From assembly GCA_037043015.1 (NCBI GenBank), contig CM073322.1, forward strand, positions 20,347,601-20,411,600: DNA of 64,000 bases, read 5' to 3'. This document shows, one piece after another, positions 9,701 to 64,000 of this stretch. This DNA is from Bryum argenteum (lineage: Eukaryota; Streptophyta; Bryopsida; Bryales; Bryaceae). The first letter of the stretch is position 1. Each line of letters starts with the position of its first letter. Under the pieces are notes generated by a model, which was not told where the DNA came from, did no database searches, and saw nothing but the letters and a program-made list of their open reading frames with translations. The translations under genes and the position numbers were made by a program.

Positions 9701-10157
9701 GGCATCCAGATTCTCCAATGACTGCAGTAAGAAACGAATGCGGTTCACGCCGGCCACCTTTGATCCAGGCGAGGGCATAGTTGGATCGGGCGCCAGAAAC
9801 CATGGATCCAACACAAAGACAGGGAACACATGGCTCGCACCTTCACGCACACAAGTCGCACTAAATCAGCAAGCTCCTAAAACCCTAAAACCTAAGCGCA
9901 TCATATGATAAATCTAAACCCCTAAACCCTGAACCTTGACACTCACTGAGCATACCTTGACAGGCACGCAGAAGGGCCGGATTGTCATGAAGCCGCAACC
10001 CTTTCCGGAACCATATTAAACTCTTCTTCTGCTGCTGCATTGATTCGCAATGCACGCTGCGATGATGCTTCCGAACCACGGGAAGAAACTTTGACGAGGG
10101 GAAACTCAACTTGCTGAAGAACGAGCTGGGACTCAACAGCCTGCTCTCCACTACCAT
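6715..10157 (-). CDS. UVR3: (6-4) DNA photolyase (UVR3 type), 15 exons
   Basis: Repairs UV-induced pyrimidine (6-4) pyrimidone photoproducts using blue light and FAD. Minus-strand exons: 10157-9956, 9840-9623, 9319-9248, 9134-9054, 8955-8785, 8671-8603, 8492-8406, 8323-8225, 8143-8060, 7977-7891, 7795-7724, 7548-7435, 7341-7254, 7176-7081, 7001-6715. All borders are GT-AG and phases agree; the product is 608 aa. The photolyase domain starts at [17 protein letters not shown] (about 46-62). The FAD domain carries GRTGHPWID and WMHHLARH; His399 and His403 are the pair needed for (6-4) repair. [10 protein letters not shown] and [16 protein letters not shown] also match plant UVR3. The first 40 residues are Ser/Arg-rich and may be an organellar leader; a later ATG at codon 40 could give a shorter form. 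The C-terminus is a Lys-rich tail of about 50 residues, possibly nuclear. The gene looks intact. Confidence 0.97.
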
Positions 10158-21674: not shown

Positions 21675-22850
<1,176 letters not shown>

Positions 22851-22864
22851 TTTTGCCCTCCTTC
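22851..22864 (-). other. Polypurine tract of the Ty3/gypsy element
   Basis: On the minus strand GAAGGAGGGCAAAA lies directly before the LTR start TGTTACCC. This is the expected position and composition of the plus-strand priming site. Confidence 0.75.
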
Positions 22865-22869
22865 GCAGA

Positions 22870-25800: not shown

Positions 25801-25930
25801 GGTACTCCCTGATGCCGGGGTAATTCTTTTCCTCGGGTTGTGTGTCCACGGTGTCCGTGGAAGGCGTCCTCGTGTTTGCTGGATCCCCGCTGTGTTCTTC
25901 CCCGTCACGTGCCTCGGCTGCCAATGTTGT
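22870..25930 (-). other. Accessory coding region of the Ty3/gypsy element, downstream of integrase
   Basis: About 3 kb between integrase and the polypurine tract, with coding-like sequence on the minus strand. The first part (about 25900-24250) has a block near 24830-24620 (LCVMAGRGEKINWGKLVDGN, then a hydrophobic segment) that resembles the 'putative plant transposon protein' domain found with plant retroelements. The middle (about 24140-23850) is rich in Glu, Arg and Gln with heptad-like spacing and looks like a coiled coil. The last part (about 23400-22900) has a CPAC...H...H pattern with HALNFRGNHVLMHRAVAEAL, which loosely recalls the zinc finger next to XS domains in plant SGS3/IDN2 proteins. 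Related elements are known to carry extra 3' ORFs. Function is unknown, and the region looks broken. Confidence 0.55.
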
Positions 25931-26007
25931 GTGTATGTCTTGTAGACTGAGGGCTGTCGTGAGTTGTGGCGTTATAGTATGGTATTGTTTTAGTTTTGCA
26001 GCGTTGA

Positions 26008-29000
26008 CTATCGTGGCGTGGGGTCATAATTTGTGTTGTTAACGAGAAGGACGGTATTGTTAGGCAGGGCTAATTGTACTGTATAGGGGCCATGCCATAT
26101 AGACTCAAATTTAGGTCTTTTGAGTTTAGGATCGCGGGGGCACCAGAGTACTTGGTCACCTTTCTGAAACAATTGTGGGGGCTGCATGCCTTGAAAGTGG
26201 CGGGTGGCCAGTGTTTGCTTGTGGAGGATGTGCGATGTTGCCAATGCTCGAAGTTCCTCAAGGTGGTGGAGATCTCCGATGCGGGCTGCGAGCACTCTGT
26301 GAGGAGTGTAATCCCTTGGCTGTAATGTTTGAAATGTCGGTACAATGTATTCCGTGGGTAGTAACGACTGAGTGCCATAAACCATTTCAAACGCGCTAGC
26401 GTTTGTGGCGGTTTTGATGGCTACGCGGTACGCCCAGAGTGCAGCTGGTAGGCAATCATCCCAATCTGCTTGGTTAGCGTGGGCGAATCTCTTCAACATA
26501 TTGATCAATATTTTGTTTGTCGATTCTGCTTGTCCATTTCCCTGGGGATAATAAACAGTGCTGGTTCGATGCTTGATAACATGGTTGTCGAGGAGGTCTT
26601 GGATGACGGTGTTCTCAAAATGTGTACCCTGATCTGATACTATTTCCAGGGGGCATCCAAACCTCGTGATTATGTTTTCGTAGATGAACGAGGCCGTGAC
26701 GACTGCGGTGTTAGTGCGCAGAGGCTTGGCCTCGACCCATTTCGTGGTATAATCCGTGGCCACGAGGATATACTTGTATCCTTGGCGTGTGACTGGTTTT
26801 ATCGGACCCACGAAGTCTAATCCCCACCGTTGAAATGGTCCCAAGGGTGGTATTGCCTTCATTGGTACTCTACCTTGGTGCTGAAAGTTTGTCGTGGATA
26901 TTTGGTAGGCGTGGCAATTCTTGACATAGGCAATGACGTCCTTGTGGATCGTTGGCCACCAGTATTTAGCGGAGAGGATCTATTTTACCGTGGTGTCGGG
27001 GCCCTAGTGGCCTCCCGCGGGTCCATCGTGGAGGTGCGCTATAATCTGCTGCTGCTGGTTAGCGGGTACGCACAACCGGATTTCCTGATCTGGTCCTCGT
27101 TTGTATAACCTTGCTTGGACCACGGTGTAGGGCAGTGTTGTCTGCACAAAACTAATCTTGCGGGTTCCTGTTATGCCCACGGGGGTATTGCCCGTGGTGA
27201 GATATCGGATGATATCGGCCCTCCAATCTGCCTTGTGTTCGTCGGAGTCTGTGGCTATTTGAGTAGCCTGCACATATGCCTCGTTGAAAGAGTCGTCTAT
27301 TCCTTCCGCAGTAGTGTTAGTATCCCTGCACAGGTAGTCGGCCATGATGTGTCTTTTCCCGGGGACGTATACCACCTCGAAGTCGTATTCGAGTAGTATC
27401 ATGATCCACCGGGCCACCCTCCCCGTGACCAAGGTTTGGTTAACAAGGTATGACAAGCTGTGGTGATCGACAATGAAACGGAATTTCTTCCCGAGAAGGT
27501 AATGTCTAAACTTTTTGACAGCGTAAATCATTGCCAGGGCCTCGCGTTCTGTGGTGGAGTAATTTCGCTCGGCTTGGTTGAGTAGTTGGCTAGCGTAAGC
27601 CACGGGTTGATCGTGTTTGTCATTTATGTTCTGTGCTAACATCACCCCCACGGCAATGTTGGACGCATCTGTGTGGACGTGGAACGGCTTAGACCAGTCT
27701 GGGGCAATGAGGATAGGTGCGTTTGAATAAGCATTTTTTATCTTCTCCAGTGCTGCTTGTGCCTCCGGCGTCCAGTCCCGTGGGTACGTATACTTGGCAT
27801 GGTTCAGTGCGGTGATCGGGGCGGTGATGTGTGCCAGTTTTTCGATGTAGATTCGGTTGAACTGTGCTAAGCCCGTGAGCTGTTGTACACCCTTTTGATT
27901 CAGTGGTGGTGTCATGTCCAAGATGTCCTTGATTTTCTCGGGGTCGGGGAGTTTGCCGTGCTTGCAGACAATGTACCCCAAGATGACCCTGGCAAAGTAC
28001 AGGAACATGCATTTGTCCGCGTTGAGACTTACCCCGTTGGTTCTGCATGCGTGGAAAATTTGCCTGAGGTGTGAGACGTGGTCCTTCATTTTGCCGTAGA
28101 CGGTTCCATCGTCCAGGTAAATTCGGAAGAATTGTTTAAGGTACGGTCTGAAAATTAATTCCATAACGCGTTGGAATGTCATGGGTGCGTTTTTGGCCCC
28201 AAATGGCATACGCTCGAATTAATAAGGTCCCCATTCCGTGGAAAAAGTTGTCTTTCCTTTATCTTGCTTGGCCATGGCTACTTGGTAATATCCCGAGAAA
28301 CAATCGAGGAACAAGTACATCTCATGTCCGGCAACCTCATCGATGATCTCCTCCATGTACGGTAATGGATAGTGATCCTTTTTTGTTGCTGCGTTGAGTT
28401 TTCGGAAATCTACGCAGATGCGCAACGTGCCGTTTTTCTTGGGGATAATAACCATGGGAGAGAGCCAAGGTGCTGCATCCACGCGGAAATGAACTTGGCG
28501 TGCAGAAGCTTGTCCAATTCAGCTTTGACCCGAGCGGCGTAATTCGGGTTTATCCTGTATCGTCGTTGCTGCACTGGGGTTGCACCGGGGACGAGGTCAA
28601 TGGTATGTTCGGCCAGGACATTGGGAATACCCTTCAGGTCCTCGTGGTTCCAGGCGAATATGTCTTTGTATTTGTGGAACAGGGCGATGGCCGCCTGCTT
28701 GATGGCTGGGGGCGCATCTGTGTTGATTTTGATGTATTTGGGCTCTTCTGTCGTTTCGAGGTTGACCAGCTGCACCCTCTCCTTGGCCCCGTGTGTCCAT
28801 CCTGTGATGGTCTCATGACACAATGCTTCCTTGGCAGGGACAGCATTTACCACCACGTCCCCGGCTATCTCGTGAGTGAAATGCTCGGGAATATCTAATT
28901 TTTCTTCTTGTACTAAACTGGCTAAATGAATCTCTGCCACGGGTATTAAGCTGGAGTAAACGTGGAGTACTAGAGCCTCCTGTTCGTTTGTGAATTCTTC

Positions 29001-29510
29001 TGGCCAATCGATCCCTGTGGAAGTCCGGATCTCACTTATCTTGGCACGAGTTAGGCAACTATCCACGGGTATAACCACGGTTCTCCCGTGGCATTGAATG
29101 TGAATGTGATTTTTGGTCCAGTCGTGGATTGCCTGCATGTCTCGTAACCAAGGTCTTCCTAAAATTACCGGAAAACCGTTGTTTTGGGGCATCTCGATTA
29201 CCACAAATGTTGCTGGTGTTGATACCCTGTGTATCGTAATCCCCACCATGGTGAGAATTCCCAGGGTGTGACGGGGGCGTCATTAGCCATGTGTAAAATA
29301 AAGCGGGCACTCCGGGGTTGTGGTAGTCCTAGTGCCTGTCGAACGTGGTTGCTCATTACATTCACGCGGGACCCCCCATCGACGAGGACATTGGTTAGTG
29401 TCTGTCCTCCTAATTGCACGTGGATTACTGCAGCGTCTGGGTCTATCGTGGCGGCGTTAACTTCCACGAACGTGGGGTCGGGTTTTGTTTCAACTACCAC
29501 AACCCTTTGT
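26008..29510 (-). other. pol region (protease, RT, RNase H, integrase) of the Ty3/gypsy element
   Basis: Protease: VLVDGGSRVNVMS near 29390. RT: LRICVDFRKLNAATKKDHYP near 28410, FLDCFSGYYQVAM near 28300, PFGAKNAPMTFQRV near 28190 and the catalytic IYLDDGTVYG near 28100. RNase H: HVHTDASNIAVGVML near 27670. Integrase: the HHCC-side HDGPAGGH near 27010, then [26 protein letters not shown] and [12 protein letters not shown] (the D, D, E residues) between 26780 and 26520. The parts are in Ty3/gypsy order. Fossil as it stands. Confidence 0.92.
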
Positions 29511-29639
29511 AGGTATTGTTGTAACTCAGGGCTGATTTGTACTAGTTTTGCCAGGGTGATGGTTACGTTGGTAGTGTCTAGAATTTGCTGTACGGTGTGA
29601 TCCGTGGCGCACCCTTGATCTGTAGGAGTGGTTTCCAGG

Positions 29640-30975
29640 TCCCTCTAGAGATCCGTCCTCATGTTATGTAGTCGTTCCCAGTGATGTTCCGGGAATGGCT
29701 TCCGGTGCTCCACCACATGGTTTGATGGAATTGCTTTTGACCGGGTAGTCACCGCGGCGGCTGAGATCATGGACGCATTTGTTTCTGGTCCGTGGACTTC
29801 AGTCAATGTTACCCCTCCTCTTCTATGGGCCGCAGGATTGGTGTTTGGATGCCCCGGGGGACTACTGTTTCGACTTTGGGTCCACTTCTGTTTGAATATG
29901 GGACACTGGCTTCGCCGATGGTCCAAACCCCCGCATTCTCAGCACGCGTTAGAGCGCCCAGGTTGAAACGCATCCACGTTAATCTCCTCGGGGTATACCG
30001 AGGCCGTGGTGTTCTTGGGTCGCCTGTGATCCTGGGACGGGGTGGCATTGGCAGAGTACCAACATCTCCCATGGTGTGTTTTTCCGCAGGTCTCACATAA
30101 CGGGGGTGCCATCCGAGCATCTTGTCGTGCCGAGGGTAATGGTAGTATGGGTGTCTGTGTTTTGTTTCAGCGCCATGAGTTCCCGGCTGATGTCATTGGC
30201 CGCGGAGAGAATGTCTGGCAGCGTTTTTACTCCACGGATAACAATACCCTGCTGTATCCATGGAAGTAAGCCCTTTTTAAACCATTCACAGATGCATTCC
30301 TCCTCGGGCTGTTGGCTAAGTTTGTCGGCCAACTGTTTAAATCTGTCATAAAACTTATCCACCGGCTCGTTTGTAGATTGCGTAATCGATCCCAATGCTC
30401 GGAGGACTTCCGAACTTGTTTTGAGTTTTCTAAACTTATGTAAAAAACTACGCTCCATATCTTCCCAACTGGCATTGCTGTGTTCGGATTCGAAGTCAAT
30501 GTACCAGTTAATATGATTTCCTTGGAGCGTGGTACCAAAAATGTTTTGTAGGTCCGTGGCATGAAAAATGCCGTTCGTACGTGCTATCACTTTAAACCTC
30601 CTGATGTGCCAGTCCGGATCCCCAGACTCGTCAAACACGGGGTAAGGTATCTTGGGTAACTTGGCCTGGGTGTCAAGGCTTCCGGGGTTGTGTGACACAG
30701 GAGGTATCCCTGCGGATATTGCTACTGGTGCCGGTGAGGGCATTCCCGAAGTGCTCGCACTGGCCGCGGCATTGTTCCCCCTGGGTATGGTTGCAGACCT
30801 TGCTGCTTCGGCTGGTTCTTCCACACTCCTGGGCGTGGAAGCAATAACCTCTGGAGCTACATTGCCTTGGATGTCCTGATATTTAAGGCTGAGCAATTCT
30901 AGCTTAGCACTCGTGGCCTCATTTTGAGCAGCTAGATCCGTCATCTGTTGCTTCATCCATTGCAGCAACTCTCTA
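29640..30975 (-). other. gag region of the Ty3/gypsy element
   Basis: The minus strand encodes a capsid-like segment typical of plant gag: LPKIPYPVFDESGDPDWHIR (about 30660-30600), then WEDMERSFLHKF and EPVDKFYDRFKQLADKL. A zinc-knuckle-like Cys/His stretch lies downstream near 29900. The gag and pol parts are not in one continuous frame as sequenced. Confidence 0.85.
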
Positions 30976-31127
30976 GTCTAGTCTTCTTGTTGCACGATTT
31001 CTTCCATATTTGCAACTGCATTTTCCACGGCTCTTTCCGCGGCATTTCTTCTTGGGGGCATCTTTTCTTCCCTACAGGCTCGTGGCCGGAGATCTCTTTC
31101 TTTCTCTTTTTCTACCTCAGCACTCCA

Positions 31128-31145
31128 TCCCCAGCATGGTCGCCA
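31128..31145 (-). other. Primer-binding site of the Ty3/gypsy element
   Basis: On the minus strand TGGCGACCATGCTGGGGA starts three bases inside the 5' LTR. It has the form of a complement to a tRNA 3' end (CCA partner TGG, then a T-stem). It resembles the TGGCGCCGTTGCCGGGGA site of Athila/Tat elements but differs in the middle, so the tRNA is uncertain. Confidence 0.7.
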
Positions 31146-31148
31146 AAA

Positions 31149-32185
<1,037 letters not shown>

Positions 32186-51105: not shown

Positions 51106-51349
51106 TGCACCACCCTTGCTCTCATTCCTCACTTCTTATCGGCTTATCGATCGACCACTCTCTTCTGCACCAGCTTCAGCTCTTGCTCTTTTCCTTCAGG
51201 TGCACGTCATGCAGTAATTCGTGTGACGATCGTTTTCGTGATACGTTGCTTCGTTTGGTTTGCGTGTATTCGTCAGTTTGTATTGATGTCCACATGCAGT
51301 TGTATCGATGTCTGATTGGTTGACGGGTGCAGGATCGGTGGACTTCATC

Positions 51350-52753
51350 ATGGCGAAGTGTGTGTTGGGATTGCTGCTGGGACTGGTGATGGCACTGGCG
51401 CTCCTGGCGACAGGGGCCACGGCGGTAAGCTGCAGGACTAACGGCGCGAGTCCATCGCAAGGCGATGCCAACAGTTGTGTTCAGTACATCCGTAATTTGG
51501 GCTCGTCCGACTGCGGGCAGACGAATTGCGGCGGTGACAGGTGCACCGTTATGTGCCGGGCGGGCGGCGCCCAGGTCAAGATCTGCGGAGACTGCAACAG
51601 AGACACCAGGTGCAGTAATGCCGGTGATGCTCTAAACAATGTGCTGGCTCAGTGCGTCGCTAATGTGGGCGGGACTGCGCGTGTCGCCGGATCTGAAGAT
51701 CGCGACGGGTTCACTTTTGTCATCGAAGGGGCTCCGCGCACACTCAACAAATACGATGTGAACTGCAAGACCAATGGCGAAGCTCCATCGCAGCGCGATG
51801 CTGACAGAGTCGTTCAGCACTTGCGGAAGCACGGCGAGGAGAAATGCAAGCAGACCACATGCCACCGTGATCAATGCACGGTGCTGCATCGAGATGGCGA
51901 CGCACAAGCCAAGATCTGCGGTGGGAAGTGCAACGATGGCCCCAAGTGCATTGTCGTCGGGGAAGCTCTGAATGAAGTATTGGCCCAGTGCGTAGCGAAT
52001 GTGGAGGGCAAGGCTCGCGTCGCTGGCGAAAGCGAAGCCGATGGGTACCGGTTCGTTCTCGAGAAGGCTGGTCGCATGGGAACCAGCCAAGAACCGAGGT
52101 GCAACACCAACGGCGACAGCCCGATGAAGCACGATGCCAAGAAGGCCGTCGATCATTTGAAGTCGCGCGGCAATGACATGTACAGACCGGAGAACTGCCG
52201 CTCAGATAAGTCACGTAAATGCTCCAACATGTACGAGACGGGCACCGCTCTTGTGGAGATTTGTGGGGACTGTGACAGGAGCATCAAGTACAGCACCGTA
52301 GCCGATGCGGTGAACGAGGTGATGAACCGGTGCGAAAGGGGCGATCGAGTCTCCGGCTTTATCGAAGCCGACGGGTTCGAAATTGGTCTTGTGCGCTCCA
52401 ATGTCGGCAGCCACGTTACTTGCACCACCGACAACCACGGTGTGCGCCTGGACGAAGCCAACGACGTCATTGAGCACCTCCAGTCGCTCGGCAATAGTGA
52501 GTGCAAACAGAACAACTGCAACGGTGACAAATGTACAACCGTGTACCAGAGGGGCAATGCCCGCGTGAGACTTTGCGGAAACTGCAACAAGAGCATCAAG
52601 TGCGCTTCAGCAGGTCATGCTCTGCTTGAGATGGTACCCAAGTGCACCAAGTGCGACAACGGAATGCCTGTAGTCTCCGGCAAGACCGAGGTGGAAGAAT
52701 TCACTGTCGAACTCGAAGGCGCCCGCAAGAACATCCTCATGATGGGCGAGTAA
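51350..52753 (+). CDS. Secreted protein with four cysteine-rich repeats
   Basis: Single coding exon, 467 aa. The ATG at 51350 is chosen because it begins a clear signal peptide (MAKCVLGLLLGLVMALALLA, cleavage likely near TGATA); an earlier in-frame ATG at 51308 lies in the leader and would bury it. The mature protein is four tandem units of about 105-115 residues beginning near 28, 137, 250 and 360. The shared pattern is C-TNG-P---DA----L, C-Q--C--D-CT, A---ICG-C, then AL-EVL-QC, a G-RVAG turn and DGF-F-LE. Units 1 and 4 keep 10 and 9 cysteines; units 2 and 3 have 8 and 6, so disulfides differ. No membrane anchor or kinase domain follows. I do not recognise the family. A small extracellular cysteine-rich defence or cell-wall fold is plausible but unproven. 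GC content is higher than the flanks. Confidence 0.85.
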   Translation: MAKCVLGLLLGLVMALALLATGATAVSCRTNGASPSQGDANSCVQYIRNLGSSDCGQTNCGGDRCTVMCRAGGAQVKICGDCNRDTRCSNAGDALNNVLAQCVANVGGTARVAGSEDRDGFTFVIEGAPRTLNKYDVNCKTNGEAPSQRDADRVVQHLRKHGEEKCKQTTCHRDQCTVLHRDGDAQAKICGGKCNDGPKCIVVGEALNEVLAQCVANVEGKARVAGESEADGYRFVLEKAGRMGTSQEPRCNTNGDSPMKHDAKKAVDHLKSRGNDMYRPENCRSDKSRKCSNMYETGTALVEICGDCDRSIKYSTVADAVNEVMNRCERGDRVSGFIEADGFEIGLVRSNVGSHVTCTTDNHGVRLDEANDVIEHLQSLGNSECKQNNCNGDKCTTVYQRGNARVRLCGNCNKSIKCASAGHALLEMVPKCTKCDNGMPVVSGKTEVEEFTVELEGARKNILMMGE

Positions 52754-54125
52754 AATCCTCGACGAAGATGAACCAAAGCAGCCGGTTTCATACTAGTTAG
52801 TATATACGGCATAGTTTTTTTTTTTTTTTCTATATAACCATGAACAAGTTTGTCCCGGATTGCATCATCCACTCGATGAGCATCGGACATAACTGTTCAT
52901 ATACTGTACATACTCTATCTGTGTTTTTCCTTTGTAGACCGAGTTGCTGTGTGTAAACTCTAGATCTGGTGCGAGATTACCTTACACTACTGAGTACAGG
53001 ATGGTGGTCCGGTTACCCAAAGAGGCTGTCGTTGTAGGTTGGTTCCATCCTCTGCTCTTATCGGTTGATGACAACCTTCACCTTGAGCACTTCTACCAAA
53101 AAAATGAGTACATAAATAAAAATCCAGATCTTTATATTATACATATATGTACTTGTCTTGATTCTCGATGGAATATTCTATTAAAGAACTTACAGTTTTG
53201 TTTTTTAGAATCAAATGTGATTGTAGAACAACAAAACAATTACTTACTAAAACCATCCTCTGTTATTTAAATCAGAAAGTCATCTTCAGGAAAACATAAA
53301 AGATCACCTATTCAGAGGTGATGATCTAAGATCGTATATCGGCCTTTGATAGTGTCGTACAGAGCCTCCACATTCCGTTATGAGAAAATTTGATGATAGC
53401 GCGCATGGTTGAAATTTTAAAATATACACTGCCCACCTCCTGTCCTATCTTGTAACATTTCACATCCCCCCAGTAAAGGCGCTTCTCAAAAGTAGCCGCA
53501 TAAACTGTTGCAATCACCGCATGTGTCATTTTTGCAAGGTATCATTCAAGCAGAGCCACATTCCTGCGGGCGCTGCGAGCAACCCCTCCCCATTCTCCGC
53601 GTAACCGCAGTATGCGACAAAAGCTCAAAGATTCGTCTAGATTTGTCCCTGCCACTTTGAATTAACTGCTCCCATCGTATCGCGCTAATACTTCGTTCCG
53701 AGAGGTGACTCGGGAGCTCCGGCGGGGAGTGGCCTCCTCTTCTTGGATGTTGCTCGCAAGTCTTGCTTTCTAGATGAAATTACTTACTCGCAAGCTATCT
53801 AATTGAGAGTATCAAAGTGGTTTAATCACCTTGCTGTGATTCAAGAGCAATGAAATGTAGGTCTCAAGATTGTCCGAAGCAACAGCCTGCTTGCTAGCTA
53901 GCACACATAGTCCCGTTTAAAAAAAGAACTCGATTTGGTAGTCGTAGGCTCGTAGCTTAGCAGAGGAGTGTATGGAAGATGGTGGCAGAGGCACTGAAGA
54001 AGATGATCAGATTGAGCAAAGTATCATAACACCTAAGTAAGAAGAGCCGGAGAGAATTGTGTACAAGTTTTACAATAGACTTGGAGGTTTGTAATCGTAG
54101 GTTCTAGTACCTAAATTATATATAA
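52754..54125. other. 3' flank and intergenic DNA
   Basis: The first few hundred bases are probably 3' UTR of the secreted-protein gene. The rest has no recognisable coding or repeat structure. Confidence 0.4.
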
Positions 54126-54379
54126 CCCCAATTCCGTTAAAATGGCACTATGCTATGTGCCATTTTGTCACACTAGATCTTACATTTGTGCTCATATAAA
54201 ATGGTATATTCTGTAATATCACAATTTTTTTTTGTAATATCACTTCTTTATATACATTGTCACTCATTTTCCCTAATATCACCTTAAAATTCTGTTATAT
54301 CACATGGTTTTTGAACTACGGTTGAGAAAGTTGAGGTGTGCCATTTTACCGGAATAATGCCATTTTAACGGAATTGGGG
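54126..54379 (-). mobile_element. MITE family A, copy 2
   Basis: 254 bp with perfect ends CCCCAATTCCGTTAAAATGGCA and TGCCATTTTAACGGAATTGGGG. Its reverse complement matches 40958-41208 along its length. The flanks are AT-rich (TATATAA, ATATATG), so the target duplication cannot be fixed. Confidence 0.88.
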
Positions 54380-54588
54380 ATATATGTATGTGTATATCAA
54401 GTCTTAAGAACCAATATCCTAGACATGTAGTTGGATTTACCCCTCTTTTTATGAGAATTATACAGATGAGTGAATCCAGTTTTTGCAAATTGTATTCAAC
54501 TTGAATACAAGGAGATTCTATAGAATGAGAGTAGGTGAACACAGTTCAATAGCCCAAGTAGAGGGTGAGAAACATCTCCGCTCCTTAA

Positions 54589-54827: not shown

Positions 54828-56399
54828 CTTTAAGTTTTGTACAAGTCAAGTGAAGTTACTTGAAAGCTATTTTCCAGAAGCTTCGTACTTGTGACTGACA
54901 CAGAAGCAAAAGCTCTATGCAGCAAATGGATTTTGTGAAGTTTCAAACAGTTTCTCGACGTTTTAAATTTTTTTTTATTCAGCGTGTGACATATGGCGGG
55001 CGTGGGTGGAGATGCTTAATATATTCATTATTATAATGTACTCCATCTGAGTCAGCCCTTTGTCAGGACAGGCCTCTATAATATTATTATATTTCCCCAT
55101 GCTCCTTAACTTATCCAACTTGCTCTTCAGTGAGAGTTATGGAGCCTTCAAAGAAATCCTACACTTTAATTTATTGGGCCCTGTCCCTTTGGGAAGGGCC
55201 TATTGGATCGAGTCGCGAAATGGGGTTAACCACTTCACTAAATATCCCCTTTTCACACTGCAGAGTGTAAATGGGCCCAACGTAACCTTAACCTAACCCT
55301 AGCTCAACCCTGCCGTTGGAGGTTGTTGTTGGGCTGCGGAGCTCCCCCTCTCTTCTCTGTCGTGACGAGGGTGTTAGTCGTTGCTGTTGCTTTGTTGGGG
55401 AGTGTCACCATGTCCCGTGTCTGGGTTTTATCGATGCTTCACTTGGGCACTTGGGCACTTGGAAAGTAGAAACCTCACGGAAGAAAGGTATGGCAGTTTC
55501 CGAGCGCCTCACGAAGGAGTGTGTGTATACCCGGCCGGCTTTGTGTCCCAGGATTGTCTCTAACATTGCTCTCAGTCTGTATTCTCACCCTCCATGTCGT
55601 CCCTGCGGTGAGTCTTGCAATTCCCTTGTCAGTTTCGTCCTCCCTCCGACTAGTGTATTTGCTGTAATCTACTTCGTCTGGCCTTGCGTTGCTTCGTACG
55701 CCGAATGGGTCGCGAGGAGGATCCCGATCATCCTCCTGACCGTCACGGCCACCGCCACCGCCATTCGCTCCATGTTGACGACGATGCTCTTCTTGCTGGC
55801 CGCGCTGCGCGCTCCTCCGATCCCCCCACGCACTCTCGCATGCCTTCCGCTGCTGGACGCGGCCGTTCTCCTCCTTTCCCCTCCAACATCTCCATTTCTC
55901 CTTCGGTGTGTGCAATTTTCTCTTGTCTTGCCGCCATTACCCACCCCTTTCTCCCTTCATTGGGCCCCGTTTGCTTTCCGTTCGTGAATGAATTACCCTC
56001 CTTGGTCCCTTGCTCGCTCCCTGTTTCCGTCACGCTTCCTTGTCTTTCAGCGCTTTATCACAACCACACCATCAGAAACTCGCCTGGTTTTATACCGGCA
56101 AGCTTGCCGTATACTATGTGTCGAGTTCATTCAATCCTGGGTTTATCTATGCTTCAAAGGACACGATTACCCTTATTACTACACGGTCGTCGATTATTGA
56201 TATCATATATCCGGAGTCTTTGCATATGTAGTACACAGCCTACCTTGCCTTTCGTTCGCCTTTTTATTTATTGCGGGATGTAGCTTGCCAATCATTCCTT
56301 GAGATTGTAGGGTTTTTGGCGGAATCGGTGAGTTTTAGGGTTTCCTATAGCTCGGTTCCCAATGCCGGCGTTTAAGTCAAGAGCACTCACGTCTGAAAT
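54828..56399. other. Intergenic region with an unassigned long frame
   Basis: A plus-strand open frame of 223 codons (55316-55987) and overlapping frames on both strands lie in a C/T-rich, GC-higher stretch. The translation is hydrophobic and Pro/Leu-rich with no motif I know, and several frames are open at once, which is usual for such composition. I do not call a gene. Confidence 0.4.
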
Positions 56400-57245
56400 G
56401 TGGTGATGTCGCCTTTTGAGACGAGGACAAGAGCGACGGAGAGAGGAGGCGAAGTGATCGTAAAAAGCAAAGGCGAAACTCCCGAGAGGAAGGCCCACAA
56501 ACATGAGAAGGAGAAGGTCTCGAGAGTGAGCTCCGGAAGACCAAGGGCGAAAAGAAGAGAGCGCACGGAAGAGCAAGCGCTCTAGTGAGGATGAGACTTC
56601 GACTGACGAGACCAAAGCGCGATTACGAAAAGAAGAGGCGTTTGCTCAAGGCGGCCAAAAATTACTCAAACGTAAGGTCTTAGCCTTCTTTTAGCTTGAC
56701 GCCTGGGGATCACGAATTGGACTCTTAGTATGGGAATCCTTAAATAGTAGGTGAGCGTATCTACCATGTTCTTGTGTACGGTCCCTCAAATTTCATTATT
56801 CATCATTCATTCATTTGTTGACGCTTTGCGAGCACAAGCCTAAATCGAAGGTTGTCCCTATGGAGCCCGCACCTCCTGGATTGAAGGTAAATCGGACTAT
56901 CACTTGTAATGTAGTCGCCCCTACCTTGCTCGCTCTCTCTCTCTTTCTCTCATATGTTGGATATCGAGGTATACGGTAGGCATCTCGCAGACTTTCTCAA
57001 GCACGTATCGTTTGCGGTCGACGACATTTCAAAGTGGAAGATTACTTTGCAAAAAGCATTGAGTTCGCAATGTGGTCAAGGAGGAGAAAGGTCTATTCTT
57101 CTCCAACTTGAGCTCGGAGGAAACGCGCAAATTATTTGCTGCCTTCGTTGAGGTTTGGAACGCGGGCAAATTGAGCGCCAAGTACTATCAGGGCATCGAA
57201 GCTGCTCCACGAACAGCCCATAAGTGGGGGTATCAAACTGGATAG
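56400..57245 (+). pseudogene. SCI1-like (style cell-cycle inhibitor 1) gene remnant
   Basis: The C-terminal block of plant SCI1 proteins is recognisable. EDYFAKSIEFAMW ends at about 57077; after a one-base shift comes KEEKGLFFSNLSSEETRKLF, then AAFVEVWNAGKLSAKYYQGI and EAAPRTAHKWG, to a stop at 57243-57245. The family reads WLKEEK across the shift, so one base has been lost there. Upstream, 56400-56700 is Lys/Arg/Glu-rich with a frame containing SSEDETSTDETKARLRKEEA that stops at a possible donor near 56674, like the charged N-terminal half of SCI1. 56832-56888 encodes KPKSKVVPMEPAPPGLK before another donor-like site. Introns are retained, so this is a piece of a genomic locus rather than a cDNA copy. 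Confidence 0.6.
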
Positions 57246-57589
57246 TCACGAAAACGCTCTTCTTGGTGAGGTTCTATCTCCTTCAGCTTGTCAGGTATTT
57301 TCTTTGGATGTTATGTAGTTTCCCATTGTTAAGATCACCACTTCTTTCAGCTGTTGTTGCAACGTAAGCACAACCCCCACTTCTAATATAGATTATTGGC
57401 GCTCGCAAAGTGTTGTCATTGAGCTTGTTAATTCTTTGAGAGCACGGTTGTACACTTGATGCATACAGAATATATTATTGGAAGGCATTGCTCTTTCGTA
57501 GATAGAGTTTCTCCCTTTCGTGTGGATAGATGCGGCGCTAGTGACGATTCTCATTGCAAGTGATACACTCGTTAATTGTGCTCCTAAAT

Positions 57590-58061
57590 TTGTGCGAGCT
57601 CAACTTGTCTCCAAGGAGTCGATACGTGTTGCGATTCTTTGGCATGAGATGTGGCATGAAGCTCTTGAGGAAGCCAACGATTATATTTTGGAGAAAGGAA
57701 TGTTGAGGCAATGTTCAACTGTTTGCAACCTTTGCATAATCTACTTGAACGAGAGGGGCCGATGATCGTGAAGGAACAACAATTCGTCCCGTAATTTTGG
57801 TCGTGAACTTGCAGAGGCTAATGAATCTTTGTATGAAGTATCGACGCACGAGCAAGGAGGCGGAACCGACTCGGGTAATTTAGCTACATTTGTCTCATAC
57901 TCTCTGTTCCCGGTCATTTCACTAAGAACTCTCTCGTGAGTTTCCCACCACGCACCGTATTTTCCTAACGTGTGAAATACCATCCAGGCTTGAGATCTTT
58001 ACTATCACGTCTTCAAGCGCATCAACAAGCAACTTCCGAGCTTGACAACCCTAGAGCTACG
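57590..58061 (+). pseudogene. TOR kinase FRB-domain fragment
   Basis: 57602-57690 encodes [20 protein letters not shown], the first helix of the FKBP-rapamycin-binding domain of TOR kinase. Later segments match in other frames: KEQQF, GRELAEANES and RRTSKEAEPTR, up to a donor at 57875. After an intron, 57988-58061 encodes DLYYHVFKRINKQLPSLTTL plus ELR, again followed by a donor. The family Trp before DLYYHV is a TGA here, and the first exon shifts frame at least once. Only this piece of a kinase of about 2,400 residues is seen, so it is a dead fragment. It lies on the same strand as the SCI1 and kinesin remnants on either side. Confidence 0.8.
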
Positions 58062-58559
58062 GTATGTCCTCTAATCTTTCTCGCTTCTGAGATCGCTTTG
58101 TGTGTAGTACAACATTGTTCGAGACGATGCATTTTGAACATTGATCTATACCCGTCTCAGTAATGTGCTACTATGATCCTCTTAACGCTTGTTCGACATC
58201 CAATACTTACTACTATATTTCCTACTCGATGCAACTTGCTTGGCGGGCGATCTGTATCTCCCGGAGCGGGAACCCACCCCGACTGACGAGCGGAGGATTC
58301 ACCGAGGAGGACTTGAGAAGGTTCTTTGAGTACTTCTACCGTCTTTGTCGGTATTATTCTTTGTCAAGGTCAAGAAGTCCACAAGTACCTATTCCTGCCT
58401 TACACCCGTTTCTGTTCTGATACCTGCCTTTCACTCACTTCTGTTTTGATTCCTCCCTTTGACGCATTTTTGTTTAGATTTATGCCTTGGATTGTGATTC
58501 ATGCGCTGGGATGGCGATTCATATGCTTGGATTTTGAATCATATGCTGGGGTGGTGATT

Positions 58560-58860
58560 GCAGGCAACAAGTTGAAGGACTTCAGGACCGCAGTGGACTC
58601 GGACCCGAAGTGCGATCGAGGCAGATCGGAAAGTCAAGCACGACGTGGAGTTCGCCAAGCAGTTCCGCACCATCGGATTCTGAATGAGTAGATGTGTGTG
58701 TCTGTGTGTGTGGATGGGCACATAAGTGTGCTGGGTTGGTGTGGTGCAGGTGACGACAAGTTCGCCACCGACGAACAAGAAGGTGTGCAGGGGCATCATG
58801 AAGAAGCTGCCGGAGACATTCGAAGAAGCGGAATGTGGAGGTAAGCAAGGAGCCACTGGC
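58560..58860 (+). other. Coding-like segments of unknown origin
   Basis: Between the TOR and kinesin remnants, intron-like borders flank short coding-like stretches: KLKDFRTAVDSDPKCD followed in another frame by KVKHDVEFAKQFRTIGF, and TSSPPTNKKVCRGIMKKL. I do not recognise the source protein. They may be another decayed gene piece. Confidence 0.35.
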
Positions 58861-58989
58861 TGTGAACCACGAAACTTAAAATGGACATGCTAAGCATGAT
58901 GTGGTGATCCCTGTTGCCCGCCCAAGCTTTGTCGGTAGAGGCTCGGAAAGTAGCTTCCTACGATCATATGGTCAAATGCTTCTGAAGCG

Positions 58990-61870
58990 CATCTTGATTG
59001 CTCGACGTGATTGGAAGGAGGTTGAAGTCAAAAATGTCCATGATGTAGTTCAGCTACTAATCCAAGTAAGTGACCTGTGCTCGATTCATTAATCACCATC
59101 TTGAAATTCTTACCGTTCATTTGCTTCGCTTGTGTGCGCGCATCCTGACGTTCGTGGTTCGTCACTTCCGGGAGTCGAGAACAGAAAGTAGCGGTGACAA
59201 ACATGAATAGGGAGAGTAGTAGATCACACAGCGTATTCGCCTGCACTATTGAAAGCAAGGTATGTCAGCGTTAGGCTTAATGCAACGAGCAAATTTTTTC
59301 TCTAGCCATCTGAGATTTTTAACACAAATTTCTGTTTAATGACGCTTAGTTTTGGGCCTGTGTAGTGGGAAAAAGAGGCTTTGACAAACACCGGTTGGCC
59401 GCTTGAACCTGGTCGATCTTGCCGGATCCGAAAGGTCCGGTTTCATTGACTACTGACAATCTGAGTAGCCTTTCCTTTTAGGTTGTAGCCGAATTAGATT
59501 CTCGTTAGTGCCTCCCAGCACCGATCGGGGATGTTGTCATTCACGCATGAGTCTCTTCGGGGTCAAGGTGATCGTTTGAAAGAAGCCGCGAACATCAACA
59601 AGTCTCTCTCGACTCTCGGTGCGAAATCATTCCCTTTGCTCTGAAAAGTCTATTACCCGAGTTCGGGTAAATCACTAGCTTTCAATGCGGTGATGGACAT
59701 GTGGAATAGGATCGCTCCTTATTGCCGGAGATGTCCTCATTTCAATGTGTATCTCGCAGTTGGTCATCATGATTATGGTTGATGTTGCCAATGGGAAACA
59801 ACGGCATGTGCCTTATCGTGATTCCGAGCTCACCTTTCTTCTCCAGTATCTCTTTAATACTAGATTTATCTTGTCTTTGGCCCTCAAACAAGATAATGTC
59901 AGTGTCAATTCGGGTGGATTGGGGTCTCATAAATTTCGAGATCTTCTCCGATGGTTGTTTTGACACTGCGAGATTCTTTAGGAGGTAACTCTAAGACAAC
60001 AGATTATAGCCACAATCGACCCCTCAAATAGGTATCTTTCATAATTCAGACCTCAATGAAGAGTTTCTACTAGAAAGCGCGGACCATTTTCTCAACTTAC
60101 GGTCACTAAGCTCAAAATTCGTTCATTGTTCTCGATACATTGTTGGCTTCATCTACTACCTTACGTGTACAAAAGTCGACTAATGTGCTCTCCATGCGAA
60201 ACGCATTGGAGACAGTGAAAGCACACTCAAATTTGCGCAACGAGCGAAGTTTATTCACAACAATGTAAGCATCTCGCCATGTATTTCATTTGTGGTGATT
60301 CCATCGAGAAGCATGAGGGGATACCGTTTGTAACCGTGTATCCCGATGACTTCAGGCTCATATTAATGAGGATTCTTCTCGAGACGTGACCGCACTCGTC
60401 GTGAAATCCAAAGAATTGAAGGTGAGAACATTCTTCCCTTGCCTTCGGATATCGGACGGGTTTCCATGCGAGATTCTATATATGTTCATTTCTTAATTCG
60501 AATGCCTTAATCATGATAACAGAAGAGATCAACCACTTGAAGTGCCACAATGTGTCGGCTATGATACCAATGGAAGGTGATGCCAACAACTTAGGTTCTA
60601 TGATTGCCACTCCTGGAATCAACGCAAGCAACCTACTTCATAAGGTATGTGAGGAGCCTTCTTGTCTTGACTCGGTGTTGAAGACCGATATGCTCTGCTC
60701 CCTTCAGTCATGAATGCTCAAGATTGTGTCATCATTTCGTGTTTGTAGATTAGGGCGTGGGAGGCTACGCTCTACCGCGTTGAGAAGGGAACAACAGCAC
60801 AAGTTGCGGCTAAGCGATATATGGGTGAAATTGACCACTTCAAACTCGGTAAATCAATTTTCTTTTGCACAAATTTGTATTTTCCTTTTGTTCTTTGCAT
60901 TCTTTGGTAGCTCGACTATTCGAGGTAATAGCTAGACATATTTTTCAAAAAAATTACTACGCTTACTCGGGACGATTTTCCATGCCTAGTAGTCGGTCTC
61001 CTTTCTTGATGTTGACTCTCTTGTCACGGTACAACAACGTGATCGAATACCCAGTGGTAAGATGATTCTTCGCCGAGAGACGAAAAATTCGCAGATTAGA
61101 AGCGGTGGTAATCAAAAGCTTCCTGCGGGCGAGTATCTCATCGAAGAAAACAAGCGGTTGGCGAAGAGCTCGAACTTGTCGGAGCACGGATCGATCGTAA
61201 TCCGAGCTCACCCGTTTCGCCATGGACAATATTCGACTTATGGAACAAGTCCGAGGGTATGTGACTACTCTAACTTACCCGACACCAATCTTAATTTCTC
61301 TTACGAAAACAAACAGACTACGTGATTTCTACTCTCTAAACTTTCTATGAACTATGGTCGATTTCAAGAATTCTATGAGCATGGAGAGCGTATGACTATG
61401 ATGGAAGATATCGCAAATCTTCGGGATCGGTATACATCTCGCCGTCCTCGAGACCGGGAAATGGTGTTATTCCACCGATGGGGATGATCTTAATTTAGTA
61501 ATACCGAATGTTTTAATAATCTAATTTCGATGTTGATGCGAACGACAAAATTGTTGGAGATGACGGAAACCAAGCTCGCTACCGGAGCAGGAGCGCATGC
61601 CCTCTCGAGTGCACAAAGTGTGTGTCGAAGTTTTCACTTTCGGAAAGTTCAAAAATTGCCAAGTTTTATCCGGTGTATGTTTTTAGTCTCGGGCACCGTC
61701 TCTGAAAGCCGACCGATAATGCGCTTGGGTTTTGTGGCCGCCAAGATGTCCGAAGTTGGGTGCTCACTTGCTCGTTTGCGGGCCGACAAGTATCGCAAGG
61801 AACTCGAGATCTGCTTTGAACGATTTGAGCACTTGCTTAGAGATCAACGCAAGTTTGACGACGTAAGACA
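58990..61870 (+). pseudogene. Kinesin-12 (phragmoplast-type) gene remnant
   Basis: Motor and stalk pieces of a plant KIN12 appear in order with introns: VKNVHDVVQLLIQ (to 59065); VAVTNMNRESSRSHSVFACT (to 59259); WEKEALTN then, one base out of frame, RLNLVDLAGSERS (59366-59440); GDRLKEAANINKSLSTLG (about 59567-59620); VIMIMVDVANGKQRHVPYRD plus SELTFLLQ (to about 59848); ESTLKFAQRAKFIHNN (about 60216-60265); EEINHLKCHNVSAM (about 60525); EYLIEENKRL then EELELV.ARIDRNP (about 61130-61200); RFQEFYEHGERMTMMEDIAN (about 61360); RKELEICFERFEHLLRDQRK (about 61795). The P-loop part of the motor is missing and frames shift repeatedly, so it is not functional. KIN12 proteins act at the phragmoplast in plant cytokinesis. 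Confidence 0.82.
60906..60966 (+). repeat. Direct repeat within the kinesin remnant, copy 1
   Basis: About 60 bp starting GGTAGCTCGACTATTC and ending TTACTACGCTTAC, repeated at 62588-62647 with only small indels. Confidence 0.92.
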
Positions 61871-62587
61871 ACCTTCGTATTTGAGATGGAGTCTCGCATT
61901 CTGTTAGCCTTTAGGGCATGAAAGTGGGGTCGCTAGTCCGAGGCTTATATTCACGATATACAATTATCTTGCGATCAAGTGGAGCAATTGAAGTCGCAAG
62001 TGGCGCGAGCTTTGAGTGCACGCTGTCGGAGCAAAGAAGCAAGATCGGACTTCCTGAAGGTAATACTTTATTGAGGAAGAAATTTACGAGCGATTTCGGC
62101 GTTCCACGCCCGCAAGATTATGATACTAGTTCCGTTACGATTTACATCCCACTACTCGTCGCCGACTTCGCATTACGTTACGGGCTCAACCCATAGGACG
62201 GTTCGAGAACTGGAGCTCGAGAGGTCGGTACATTTGCAAATCATTGAAGATCTGAAGCTCGGCTTTTGCAACAAAGAGTTGATTCTTTATCTTCTCGCTT
62301 GGCCGTTTGTCTATGTGGTCCGGAAGTTTTTCACATCTATTATTTTACTAGATCCCACATCTTTGAAGTACAACTACTTGTAGATAACGTACGCCCTAGA
62401 GCTGTACGTTCGAACCCAGGACGAGCATTGTTGACAGTGTTGACGTCAGAAACCCTCGCCTGGCCGCTATGATAGGCACTCTTGAATGCGGGTGTACTTT
62501 CTGATTTGCTCGTTTCTCACGTCTAGAAATTCTTGTTTGGTTTCTGAAGATTGTAAGTCAATCTGTGCAGAAGGAAAGCGAGGAGCT
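61871..62587 (+). other. Probable further kinesin-12 stalk remnant
   Basis: Short Glu/Leu/Arg-rich frames such as VRELELERSVHLQIIEDLKL (about 62195-62255) and KESEELVARLFR (about 62571-62606) look like coiled-coil pieces with degenerate intron borders. They are too short to assign firmly. Confidence 0.45.
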
Positions 62588-62647
62588 GGTAGCTCGACTA
62601 TTCAGGTAATAGCTAGACATATTTTTCAACAAAATTACTACGCTTAC
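62588..62647 (+). repeat. Direct repeat within the kinesin remnant, copy 2
   Basis: Here the repeat continues an open stretch after an acceptor (GTGCAG, then KESEELVARLFR) and runs across what looks like the exon end into the intron. This suggests a local duplication of a kinesin exon border. Confidence 0.9.
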
Positions 62648-62979
62648 ATTAATGAATCAGTGCAATTAACATCTTGTTAATGAGAAATTTGATACGTATT
62701 TTAGAAGAGGGGTCAGCAATAAATGCTGCCCTGTACTTGTTTGAGTGTGCATGCATCTTTGTAATTTTTATGTATTTGTACCATGGTCTTTTTAAAACCA
62801 AAATGAAGTAAAACGTACTCAATGGTAGCTGCTTTGTCATAATGATTTGTGATATTTTACTGCCGTTGATTTTGTTTACCCATCTGAAATTAGTTTTACA
62901 GAGGTAAAAGTGGATGTAAGAGTGAGAGTATAAGTACCTTTAGCTTGGAGGAGAGAGCAGCCTCTTGTTTAGTTTTCAC
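62648..62979. other. AT-rich spacer
   Basis: No coding or repeat structure was recognised before the minisatellite begins. Confidence 0.4.
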
Positions 62980-63260
62980 TTGTAAGATTTAGTTCTCAAT
63001 TCCTTTGTAAGTGCTGATCTTGTACTGACTTGTAAGTGTTTGTTCTGAAATTTTATGTGAGTGCTGAAATTGTGCTAACTTGTAAGTTTTTGTCTTGAAA
63101 TCTTATGTTAGTATTGAAATTGTACTAACTTCTAGGTTTTTGTTCTGAAATCTTGTGTTCTTCTTTGAAATTGTACTAACTTGAAAGTTTGAGTTTTGAA
63201 AGTTAATGTGGTCTTGAATCTTCTCTTGACTTGTAATTTTCAATTCAAGTCTCGGGTTAG
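62980..63260. repeat. 50-bp minisatellite, about five diverged copies
   Basis: The unit is close to ACTTGTAAGTTTTTGTTCTG followed by AAATCTTATGTGAGTGCTGA and AATTGTACTA. The clearest copies run from about 63026 to 63180; the outer copies are more diverged. Confidence 0.85.
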
Positions 63261-63432
63261 TCTTTGTAATTTGTTCTAGTTTGCGAGTTCTTTGTGTAAA
63301 AATTTTTATGTTTGTTTTTTGGTTTGTTTTTGTCATTTGTTTTGATAAATTGTGTTTTTTGAGTGAGAAAATGGCCATGGTTGCGAATAACAAGGGCAAG
63401 GGAAGAGGCCCCCAAGTCCTAGGTTGGTGTTG

Positions 63433-64000
63433 ATGTTTGACATCCAACCCAAAATGTTGGATGGTGCTTTCGAAGGAAAGGTCTTGAACAGGTACGGTAC
63501 ATTTGACATTCCAGGCAGTAGGTATAAGTTTATTCATGTAGATTTGGTAGATCGTGAGGGATATTGCACTATAACCCTGACTGCTGCGGACTCATATGCT
63601 GACAAATTCACCTCGAAGCTCATTCCTGGGCTGTTTTTGAGAGTGTCAAATTTTAGTGTGAATAATAAGCATGGTACGTTCGAGCACGGGGACTCTTCTT
63701 ACTCTCTTAGAGTAGGATCTATAACTTCAGTGGAAGTTATTGATGCTTTTGACATCCCCATTTCTTTCCTTCCCACCCACTCCATCAAACAATTCCTTGC
63801 TCGGAAGTGTTTGAATGAAGTGGGAACTCTTGAATTGGTTGTTGTGGCTGTCATTGGAAGAAGCAAGAAGAACTTCATACTTACAGTGGCTGATTCCAAG
63901 GAGAGTGTCCACTCTTTCGTCTTTTATGTGGAATTTTTCGCAGAATACACTTTCCTTGCTGAAAAGTGTACGCGTGGGGAGGTGGCCACATTTTTGATCA
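63433..64000 (+). CDS. RPA70-like OB-fold protein, partial (runs off the window)
   Basis: A frame open for 189 codons from ATG 63433 to the window edge. It starts MFDIQPKMLDGAFEGKVLNR, then GTFDIPGSRYKFIHVDLVDR, a short TLTAADSYADKF segment, then GLFLRVSNFSVNNK and YSLRVGSITSVEVID. This is the order of strands in the DNA-binding OB folds of replication protein A large subunit (VDLVD-EG, ADKF, G-VY-ISN-, Y-L). A second OB-like half (GTLELVVVAVIGRSKKNFIL and TVADSKES) follows, as in the paired DBD-A/DBD-B domains. It may be a host RPA1 paralogue or an RPA carried by a Helitron. The usual N-terminal domain is absent: upstream in this frame is a stop at 63388, and ATG 63371 is in another frame. 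Start uncertain. Confidence 0.6.
   Translation, partial: MFDIQPKMLDGAFEGKVLNRYGTFDIPGSRYKFIHVDLVDREGYCTITLTAADSYADKFTSKLIPGLFLRVSNFSVNNKHGTFEHGDSSYSLRVGSITSVEVIDAFDIPISFLPTHSIKQFLARKCLNEVGTLELVVVAVIGRSKKNFILTVADSKESVHSFVFYVEFFAEYTFLAEKCTRGEVATFLI

Follow-up and report, generated by a model that had tools for sequence, protein, structure and literature searches.

Pieces of six host genes carried by a Helentron-like rolling-circle transposon in the moss Bryum argenteum

Results and Discussion

Gene segments and donor loci

The window, that is the whole stretch of DNA analysed here, comprises 64,000 nucleotides of Bryum argenteum contig CM073322.1 (C2; positions 20,347,601 to 20,411,600), and towards its right end lies a chain of eight segments from six genes, AGO, SCI1-like, TOR, SHMT, ABCA and kinesin, all in sense orientation on the plus strand. 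Mapping to the moss's own genome places their donors at six separate places on three contigs, with segment-donor identities of 90.1 to 98.2%, far beyond chance. An earlier note had recognised three host-gene pieces on this strand (SCI1, TOR FRB and kinesin-12), and the mapping bears this out, extends three genes to six, and confirms both the single orientation and the retained introns. That note would have counted a shared intact locus, with the pieces side by side, against capture; the donor loci were located in the same genome, and no such arrangement was encountered because they lie at six separate places. All six donors possess open exons and the expected domains, SCI1 excepted. A foreign origin of the fragments, suggested by introns near 100 bases, was rejected in light of the 90-98% donors in the same genome.

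Reading from the left, the element's own 5' end (55172..55419), with its subterminal repeat GGGCCCTGT, was delimited by genome alignment and can be aligned over the whole or most of its length, at 83-96%, at 23 other places in the genome. It is followed by a 21-base remnant of the repeat upstream of AGO (55420..55440), the left edge of the older cargo, which was placed by eye against AGO and the siblings C7:8.36 and C3:6.03, is too short for BLAST and falls within a repetitive motif. The next segment (55441..57291; 93.5% to C7:1073901-1075788) covers an upstream region and exons with introns of a gene that we call SCI1-like, as the earlier note does; neither the segment nor its donor gene has a Pfam match. 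The TOR segment (57291..58260; 94.6% to C7:2498028-2498994) holds FRB exons (PF08771, E 1.7e-9) and introns, has mTOR as its PDB sequence match, and derives from a donor carrying FRB, FAT and PI3-kinase domains. Next come the 3' exons of SHMT with an intron (58261..58680; 90.1% to C6:5551169-5551563, donor PF00464), where the BLAST match begins at 58284 and the first 23 bases were placed by eye, an AGO exon segment (58683..58854; 91.3% to C5:16059493-16059664, donor ArgoN and ArgoL1), and an exon segment of an ABCA transporter (58850..59018; 98.2% to C5:19581542-19581710, donor ABC_tran and R1_ABCA1). The longest segment, from kinesin (59014..62588; 93.4% to C7:14586985-14590576), spans the motor end (PF00225) and stalk with introns; its motor pieces are spread over several frames (best E 5.2e-7 and 2.4e-6) and its nearest PDB sequence match is KIF15, so that the TOR and kinesin identities first read from the letters both stand. 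A further 63 bases (62585..62647; 98.4% to donor L015 3395-3457) repeat a stretch of the same kinesin intron whose first copy lies at 60905-60966. The resulting 62-base direct repeat had been considered as a transposon end and was rejected as such, being this second intron copy. Beyond the cargo, on the plus strand, are a 50-base tandem repeat (62978..63201) and, 3' of it, an RPA-like open frame (63391..64000) that runs off the window.

The element and its second copy

The chain lies within an element of 17.3 kb, from 55172 to 72489 in window coordinates, the part inside the window being 55172..64000 on the plus strand. Its extent was set by common termini and by end-to-end alignment with a second copy on contig C5 (55171-72495 aligned, 96.9% identity); the left edge is accurate to about one base, and the right end lies 8.5 kb beyond the window, at C2:20420089. 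Moreover, the two copies share their termini and cargo junctions, while their surrounding sequence contexts do not align. Pattern searches of the genome recovered 27 ends of each kind, five-prime and three-prime, from which 23 pairs could be matched by position; the reversed patterns used as a control gave 0 of either.

These observations bear on two explanations in which no mobile element joined the pieces. The retained introns, the fragmentary genes and the apparent frameshifts would fit a segmental duplication in decay, or pseudogenes accumulating where recombination is low, but such an origin is made very improbable by the complete second copy, which has matching edges and junctions on another contig, by transposon termini with a transposase, and by donors at six places. 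Likewise, the joining of six unrelated genes, together with CAG/CTG differences that suggest an imperfect consensus in the region, could point to an assembly chimera, an equally implausible account given that two loci whose flanks differ have these junctions in common and that the family has 23 position-paired members. The fragment chain is thus the cargo of a 17-kb rolling-circle transposon that has since been copied to another chromosome, and the suggestion in the earlier note of a Helitron or other capture element is supported by the termini, the second copy, the transposase matches and the donors.

Termini and transposase-side domains

The element ends read T[A/G]TTGGGCCCTGT ... ACAGGGCCC-hairpin-CTTGT, inserted at T|T, and are common to the 22 five-prime and 22 three-prime ends compared. 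The base just beyond the 3' end is a T in 20 of 22 elements, and the 5' ends show T-T[A/G]TT in 20/22, the remaining two lying within T runs, as expected of the TT-dinucleotide insertion of Helentrons. Also as in Helentrons, there are subterminal inverted repeats of 9 bases (GGGCCCTGT / ACAGGGCCC) and a hairpin (GTGTC-TATC-GACAC). Compared with a Pack-type TIR transposon these repeats are subterminal and unequally placed, and the flanks have no evident duplication beyond the T, as judged from occupied sites. The element ends do not have the 5' TC, the 3' CTRR with hairpin or the A/T insertion of canonical Helitrons; of the ends that had been anticipated, the 3' hairpin is present, whereas the termini themselves, with CTTGT and T|T, are closer to those of Helentrons.

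To the right of the cargo, Pfam matches follow in the order OTU, Rep, Pif1-type helicase and endonuclease, several of them below cut-offs, and this predicted order is a Helentron-like layout. The OTU match in the window's copy scores 22.3 bits against a cut-off of 23.3. The Rep match is found 4.3 kb beyond the window's right end, at C2:20415897, and is below the cut-off here (E 5.6e-4 and 1.2e-4); in the C5 copy it is above it (E 3.6e-10), giving the Rep (HUH) domain expected of a Helentron. The Pif1-type helicase (PF05970), likewise a Helentron feature, is above the cut-off in two frames (E 6.6e-10 and 1.5e-8), and just 3' of it is an endonuclease match (PF03372, E 3.3e-4, 20.9 bits against 24.5) in interrupted frames. 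The earlier note had expected Rep and helicase on this side. Both copies have the Rep motif GGYPHDH, and canonical Helitron copies in the same genome have RGLPHAH. Neither copy has the S that stands between G and P in the Helentron signature, and because of this we call the element Helentron-like rather than a Helentron in the strict sense. The RPA-like frame has OB-fold matches below the Pfam cut-off (DUF223, E 0.016; tRNA_anti-codon, E 0.023) and no PDB sequence match, so that its name, weak from the frame alone, is supported by its position within the element.

Helentrons as described in PMC4067079 combine Rep and helicase with subterminal inverted repeats, a 3' hairpin and a TT target, all of which resemble the present element, and also have an endonuclease domain after the helicase and accessory genes of OTU and RPA-like type, for which the sub-threshold matches here are candidates; the subterminal repeats are 12-15 bases in mite families as opposed to 9 here, and the Rep motif here lacks the S signature. 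Our element shares rolling-circle proteins and the capture of many intron-bearing gene fragments with the canonical Helitrons of plants such as maize (PMC13317346), but differs in its termini, its T|T target and its Rep motif. The FoHeli elements of Fusarium, in the Helitron2 group, have similar non-canonical Helitron2/Helentron-type termini, but according to PMC5148889 no RPA-like genes or endonuclease were found in fungal elements, and gene capture was not considered important there.

Capture of host-gene pieces

How rolling-circle transposons capture host genes, by end-bypass or as filler DNA, is still debated (PMC6544945). In the present element the SCI1-TOR-SHMT block sits within AGO sequence, which resumes after SHMT, and in siblings C7:8.36 and C3:6.03 the cargo starts with AGO at base 249-250. 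Neighbouring segments overlap by 5 bases at the AGO-ABCA junction, 5 at ABCA-kinesin and 4 at kinesin-kinesin, where the sequence jumps back within the kinesin donor by about 1.7 kb; at AGO-SCI1 and SCI1-TOR about one base is common, which is of little meaning, and TOR-SHMT and SHMT-AGO have no clear base overlap. From the nesting in AGO and the back-jump we infer internal template switching. The cargo has about 250 bases of the element's own 5' end on one side and the RPA-like gene on the other. It would have arisen when an internal break, or copying that stalled within the element, was filled by a switch to templates from host genes, with 4 to 5 matching bases used at some of the junctions; newer pieces would have been inserted inside older cargo, and the mosaic would thereafter have moved as one unit.

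The same element type might instead have gained its cargo by repeated read-through past its 3' terminus into flanking genes, an end-bypass mode that is reported as confirmed for canonical Helitrons (PMC5148889). We regard this as improbable, since the cargo is placed towards the 5' end, flanked by the element's own sequence and by the RPA-like gene, newer pieces lie within AGO sequence, a back-jump occurs within one donor, and the donors are spread over three contigs. It is highly probable, in our judgement, that we are dealing with one copy of a Helentron-like rolling-circle family that captures host-gene pieces by internal template switching. The insect Hel1 family and its filler-DNA model are similar in their internal, stepwise captures with end junctions of 2-13 bases (PMC6544945), but the stretches there are much shorter, whereas here they reach up to 3.6 kb, are nested and include a donor back-jump.

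Donor matches are all sense in the window's element and in 8 fetched siblings, and no Pfam family was found on the antisense strand in 3 of the 8. Siblings also carry offset stretches from these donors, which could reflect inheritance with loss, not repeated capture. Independent TOR captures, considered from a 98-base overlap between elements at 88.9%, were given up, since most of the differences fall at CTG.

The family thus offers a legible capture record, with same-genome donors, short-match junctions, a donor back-jump and nested pieces. Gene capture by Helentrons has been described: a Culex element contains two histone fragments and a Phytophthora proto-Helentron a single gene fragment, and few Helentron matches were reported from land plants (PMC4067079). 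Here one element carries pieces of six host genes, with others in siblings, which would widen multi-gene capture to include Helentron-like elements of a land plant. Literature on Helentrons in mosses was scarce among the matches listed, which is weak evidence of absence.

Changes at CAG and CTG sites

The earlier note had called all pieces broken. They are indeed truncated at the junctions, but the damage to reading frames within them falls mainly on CAG/CTG and may be something other than real mutation. In the window's copy 191 of 271 CAG/CTG (CWG) sites are changed as compared with 19/175 GAC/GTC (GWC) sites, and in five siblings the corresponding counts are 36/83 and 10/72, 52/83 and 18/72, 5/24 and 3/29, 9/20 and 2/13, and 6/15 and 1/15. 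This excess in all six elements, and the same change at 94 of the 176 sites altered in both copies, would suit a genuine mutational process directed at CWG sites, with no sequencing error involved. It would have to act on CWG-methylated repeats by non-deaminating rewrites to CG-containing or shifted sequence, unlike RIP, breaking captured genes on the way; were it real, it would be a repeat-defence mutator. However, the common changes are context-bound rewrites (e.g. GCTG to TTTG, TCAGA to TCGGA) and not C to T, 219 of the 412 altered calls create a new CG, and the other 82 of the 176 sites differ between the copies. We consider such a process unlikely, and from the pattern of the changes most internal breaks are probably sequencing artefacts over CAG/CTG-methylated DNA. 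Methylation differences likely reduce basecalling accuracy in plants (PMC9749173, which does not mention CHG, CAG or CTG), and in assemblies of this sort genes and transposons can look decayed through an artefact linked to CAG/CTG. The artefact reading supposes nanopore data; an assembly made from other data, which is possible, would speak against it. An apparently older cargo half (33.4 against 12.4 substitutions per kb in the transposase half) was withdrawn after CAG/CTG and CG surroundings were masked, with 8/2,909 against 7/6,053 sites remaining; over the masked alignment, the two copies differ at 15 of 8,962 sites.

Element structure and classification

The window covers C2:20347601-20411600 in a genome of 258.8 Mb and 25 contigs. 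A genome search with window 56397-62650 as query found a full second copy on contig C5 at 95%. After extension, the C2 copy in the window and the C5 copy aligned from window 55171 to 72495 at 96.9%, and the extended alignment showed no collinear match between them outside this interval. The element (window 55172 to 72489, crossing the right edge) has the 5' end T[A/G]TTGGGCCCTGT and the 3' end ACAGGGCCC-TTT-GTGTC-TATC-GACAC-CTTGT, followed by T in 20 of 22 compared elements and by A in two, including the C5 copy. A genome pattern search allowing up to three mismatches gave 27 five-prime and 27 three-prime ends, and no hits to the reversed end patterns; pairing by position and strand yielded 23 elements spanning 4.1 to 19.6 kb, leaving four ends of each kind unpaired. 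The 8.5 kb right half is nearly whole or mostly present at ≥96% in six copies, the C2 element among them. Two family members (C10:2144817-2164432 and C4:7772536-7790724) have ends 18-20 kb apart with about 1.4 kb of right half matched, reflecting either large cargo or nested insertions.

On the plus strand at 55-64 kb of the window, Pfam identifies the FRB domain of TOR and parts of a kinesin motor divided among frames; by sequence, the PDB matches are mTOR and KIF15. For the RPA-like frame at 63391, the OB-fold matches are all sub-threshold, and a PDB sequence search gave no match. Beyond the window the right half matches OTU, DUF6570, Helitron_like_N, PIF1 and Exo_endo_phos, in that order; in the C2 copy all but PIF1 and the related AAA_19 fall below their cut-offs, and in the C5 copy the Rep match is above its own. 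The layout, ends and TT target are similar to those of Helentrons (PMC4067079, PMC5148889), but the Rep motif, GGYPHDH, lacks the Helentron S signature, and we therefore call the element Helentron-like rather than a Helentron. The best eight of 110 Helitron_like_N matches in the whole genome (L001-L008) have RGLPHAH, the canonical motif, and Helitrons of the canonical type are thus present alongside the Helentron-like family. The earlier note had proposed a Helitron or other capture element; the second copy, paired ends, transposase-type matches and cargo donors at separate loci support capture, with the type now narrowed to Helentron-like.

Cargo, donors and junctions

The three gene fragments first noticed (SCI1-like, TOR and kinesin) are present, together with AGO, SHMT and ABCA. 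From left to right the cargo comprises a 21-base AGO remnant, then SCI1-like (donor C7:1.07 Mb), TOR (C7:2.50 Mb), SHMT (C6:5.55 Mb), AGO (C5:16.06 Mb), ABCA (C5:19.58 Mb) and kinesin (C7:14.59 Mb) segments, all six sense, and finally 63 bases of repeated kinesin intron; the segments are the same in the C5 copy. The expected domains were found at the kinesin, ABCA, TOR, SHMT and AGO donors, and a domain search of the SCI1-like donor found none. AGO genes form a family, with an 87% match at a second place (L032), so the AGO donor may be a paralogue.

AGO matches occur in seven of eight sibling cargoes, starting in the upstream repeat motif in five of those seven, and a longer AGO fragment begins at base 249-250 of the element in siblings C7:8.36 and C3:6.03. 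In the C2 element AGO ends after 21 bases, is followed by SCI1-TOR-SHMT, and then resumes. Junctions overlap by 5 bases (AGO-ABCA), 5 (ABCA-kinesin), 4 (kinesin-kinesin, a jump back of about 1.7 kb within one donor) and about 1 base each (AGO-SCI1 and SCI1-TOR); the TOR-SHMT and SHMT-AGO junctions showed no clear overlap. Of the capture models set out in PMC6544945, filler DNA or template switching fits better than end-bypass, since the cargo is internal and nested.

Every match to the six donor stretches is in sense orientation, both in the element and in the eight siblings with fetched cargo (some partial), and a Pfam scan of the antisense strand in three of those eight found nothing. Sense frames of five of the eight (one partial) contain SHMT, FAT and PI3-kinase (TOR), FAD_binding_2, SUV3, NDK, Thi4 and ABC_tran, with Succ_DH_flav_C below cut-off, indicating that the family also carries further genes. 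Siblings hold offset stretches of common donors (SHMT 855-1261, 878-1531 and 1501-1895; TOR 1-558 with 2370-3696, and 1501-2467; ABCA 1580-1871 and 1501-1669), for which inheritance with loss and return to one donor are both possible. Over a 90-base ABCA overlap the element and C4:11.72 are identical, sharing one difference from the donor. A separate TOR capture (donor 2130-2940, 83-89%) occurs in a different element type, a repeat family (L019, L021, L022, L023 and L025, at C3:17.04, C10:16.51, C1:6.01, C7:1.56 and C8:4.68 Mb) whose members share an abrupt left border, ACTAGGG...CTACTCTCCGC, some 220 bases ahead of the TOR stretch.

Changes at CAG/CTG and age

Comparing the SCI1, TOR, SHMT and kinesin segments of the C2 copy with their donors, we found 191 of 271 CAG/CTG changed, against 19 of 175 GAC/GTC; 357 of 538 differing columns lie in or adjoin CAG/CTG, which make up 1,374 of 6,946 columns. 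Rather than C to T, the common changes are rewrites bound to their context, and CpG observed/expected exceeds that of the donor in all four segments of both copies. At 33 of 269 CAG/CTG sites neither copy has a change and at 60 only one does; both do at the remaining 176, where the change is identical at 94 and different at 82. CAG/CTG are changed at 21-63% in five siblings (GAC/GTC 7-25%), and are enriched for change in all 10 pairs of the canonical Helitron copies L004-L008 (five, not independent); the L001-L002 and L021-L022 pairs showed no such enrichment. Judged from these sequence patterns, the anomaly is probably basecalling error over CHG-methylated DNA. The gene fragments had been described as all broken; with changes so concentrated at CAG/CTG, their decay is in doubt.

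Among the 4,437 sites that lie over 4 bases away from any CAG/CTG, the two copies share a difference from the donors at 78; 12 differences are unique to C2 and 29 to C5, and at two sites all three differ. Shared differences are more frequent in AGO and SHMT (22/284) than in the other four genes (56/4,153; Fisher p 1.3e-9), and these two segments consequently look older, if the true donors have been found. When the surroundings of CAG/CTG and CG in either copy are masked, 8 differences between C2 and C5 remain over 2,909 cargo sites and 7 over 6,053 right-half sites, a lower bound because the mask preferentially removes changed sites; this low divergence suggests recent duplication.

Other features of the window

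A MITE-like 35-base inverted repeat (54117-54388, 91% complementary, spacing 202 bases) lies about 0.8 kb left of the element's start. An open frame of 488 codons (51287-52750), with a signal-like start and then three cysteine-rich repeats, matched no Pfam family at E 0.1 or below. On the minus strand, a Gypsy-like LTR element (21843-32000, family named by eye) contains long perfect (GT)n runs of 204.5 and 134.5 units in its two LTRs, and 6700-9900 holds a gene with introns near 100 bases that by eye is photolyase- or cryptochrome-like.
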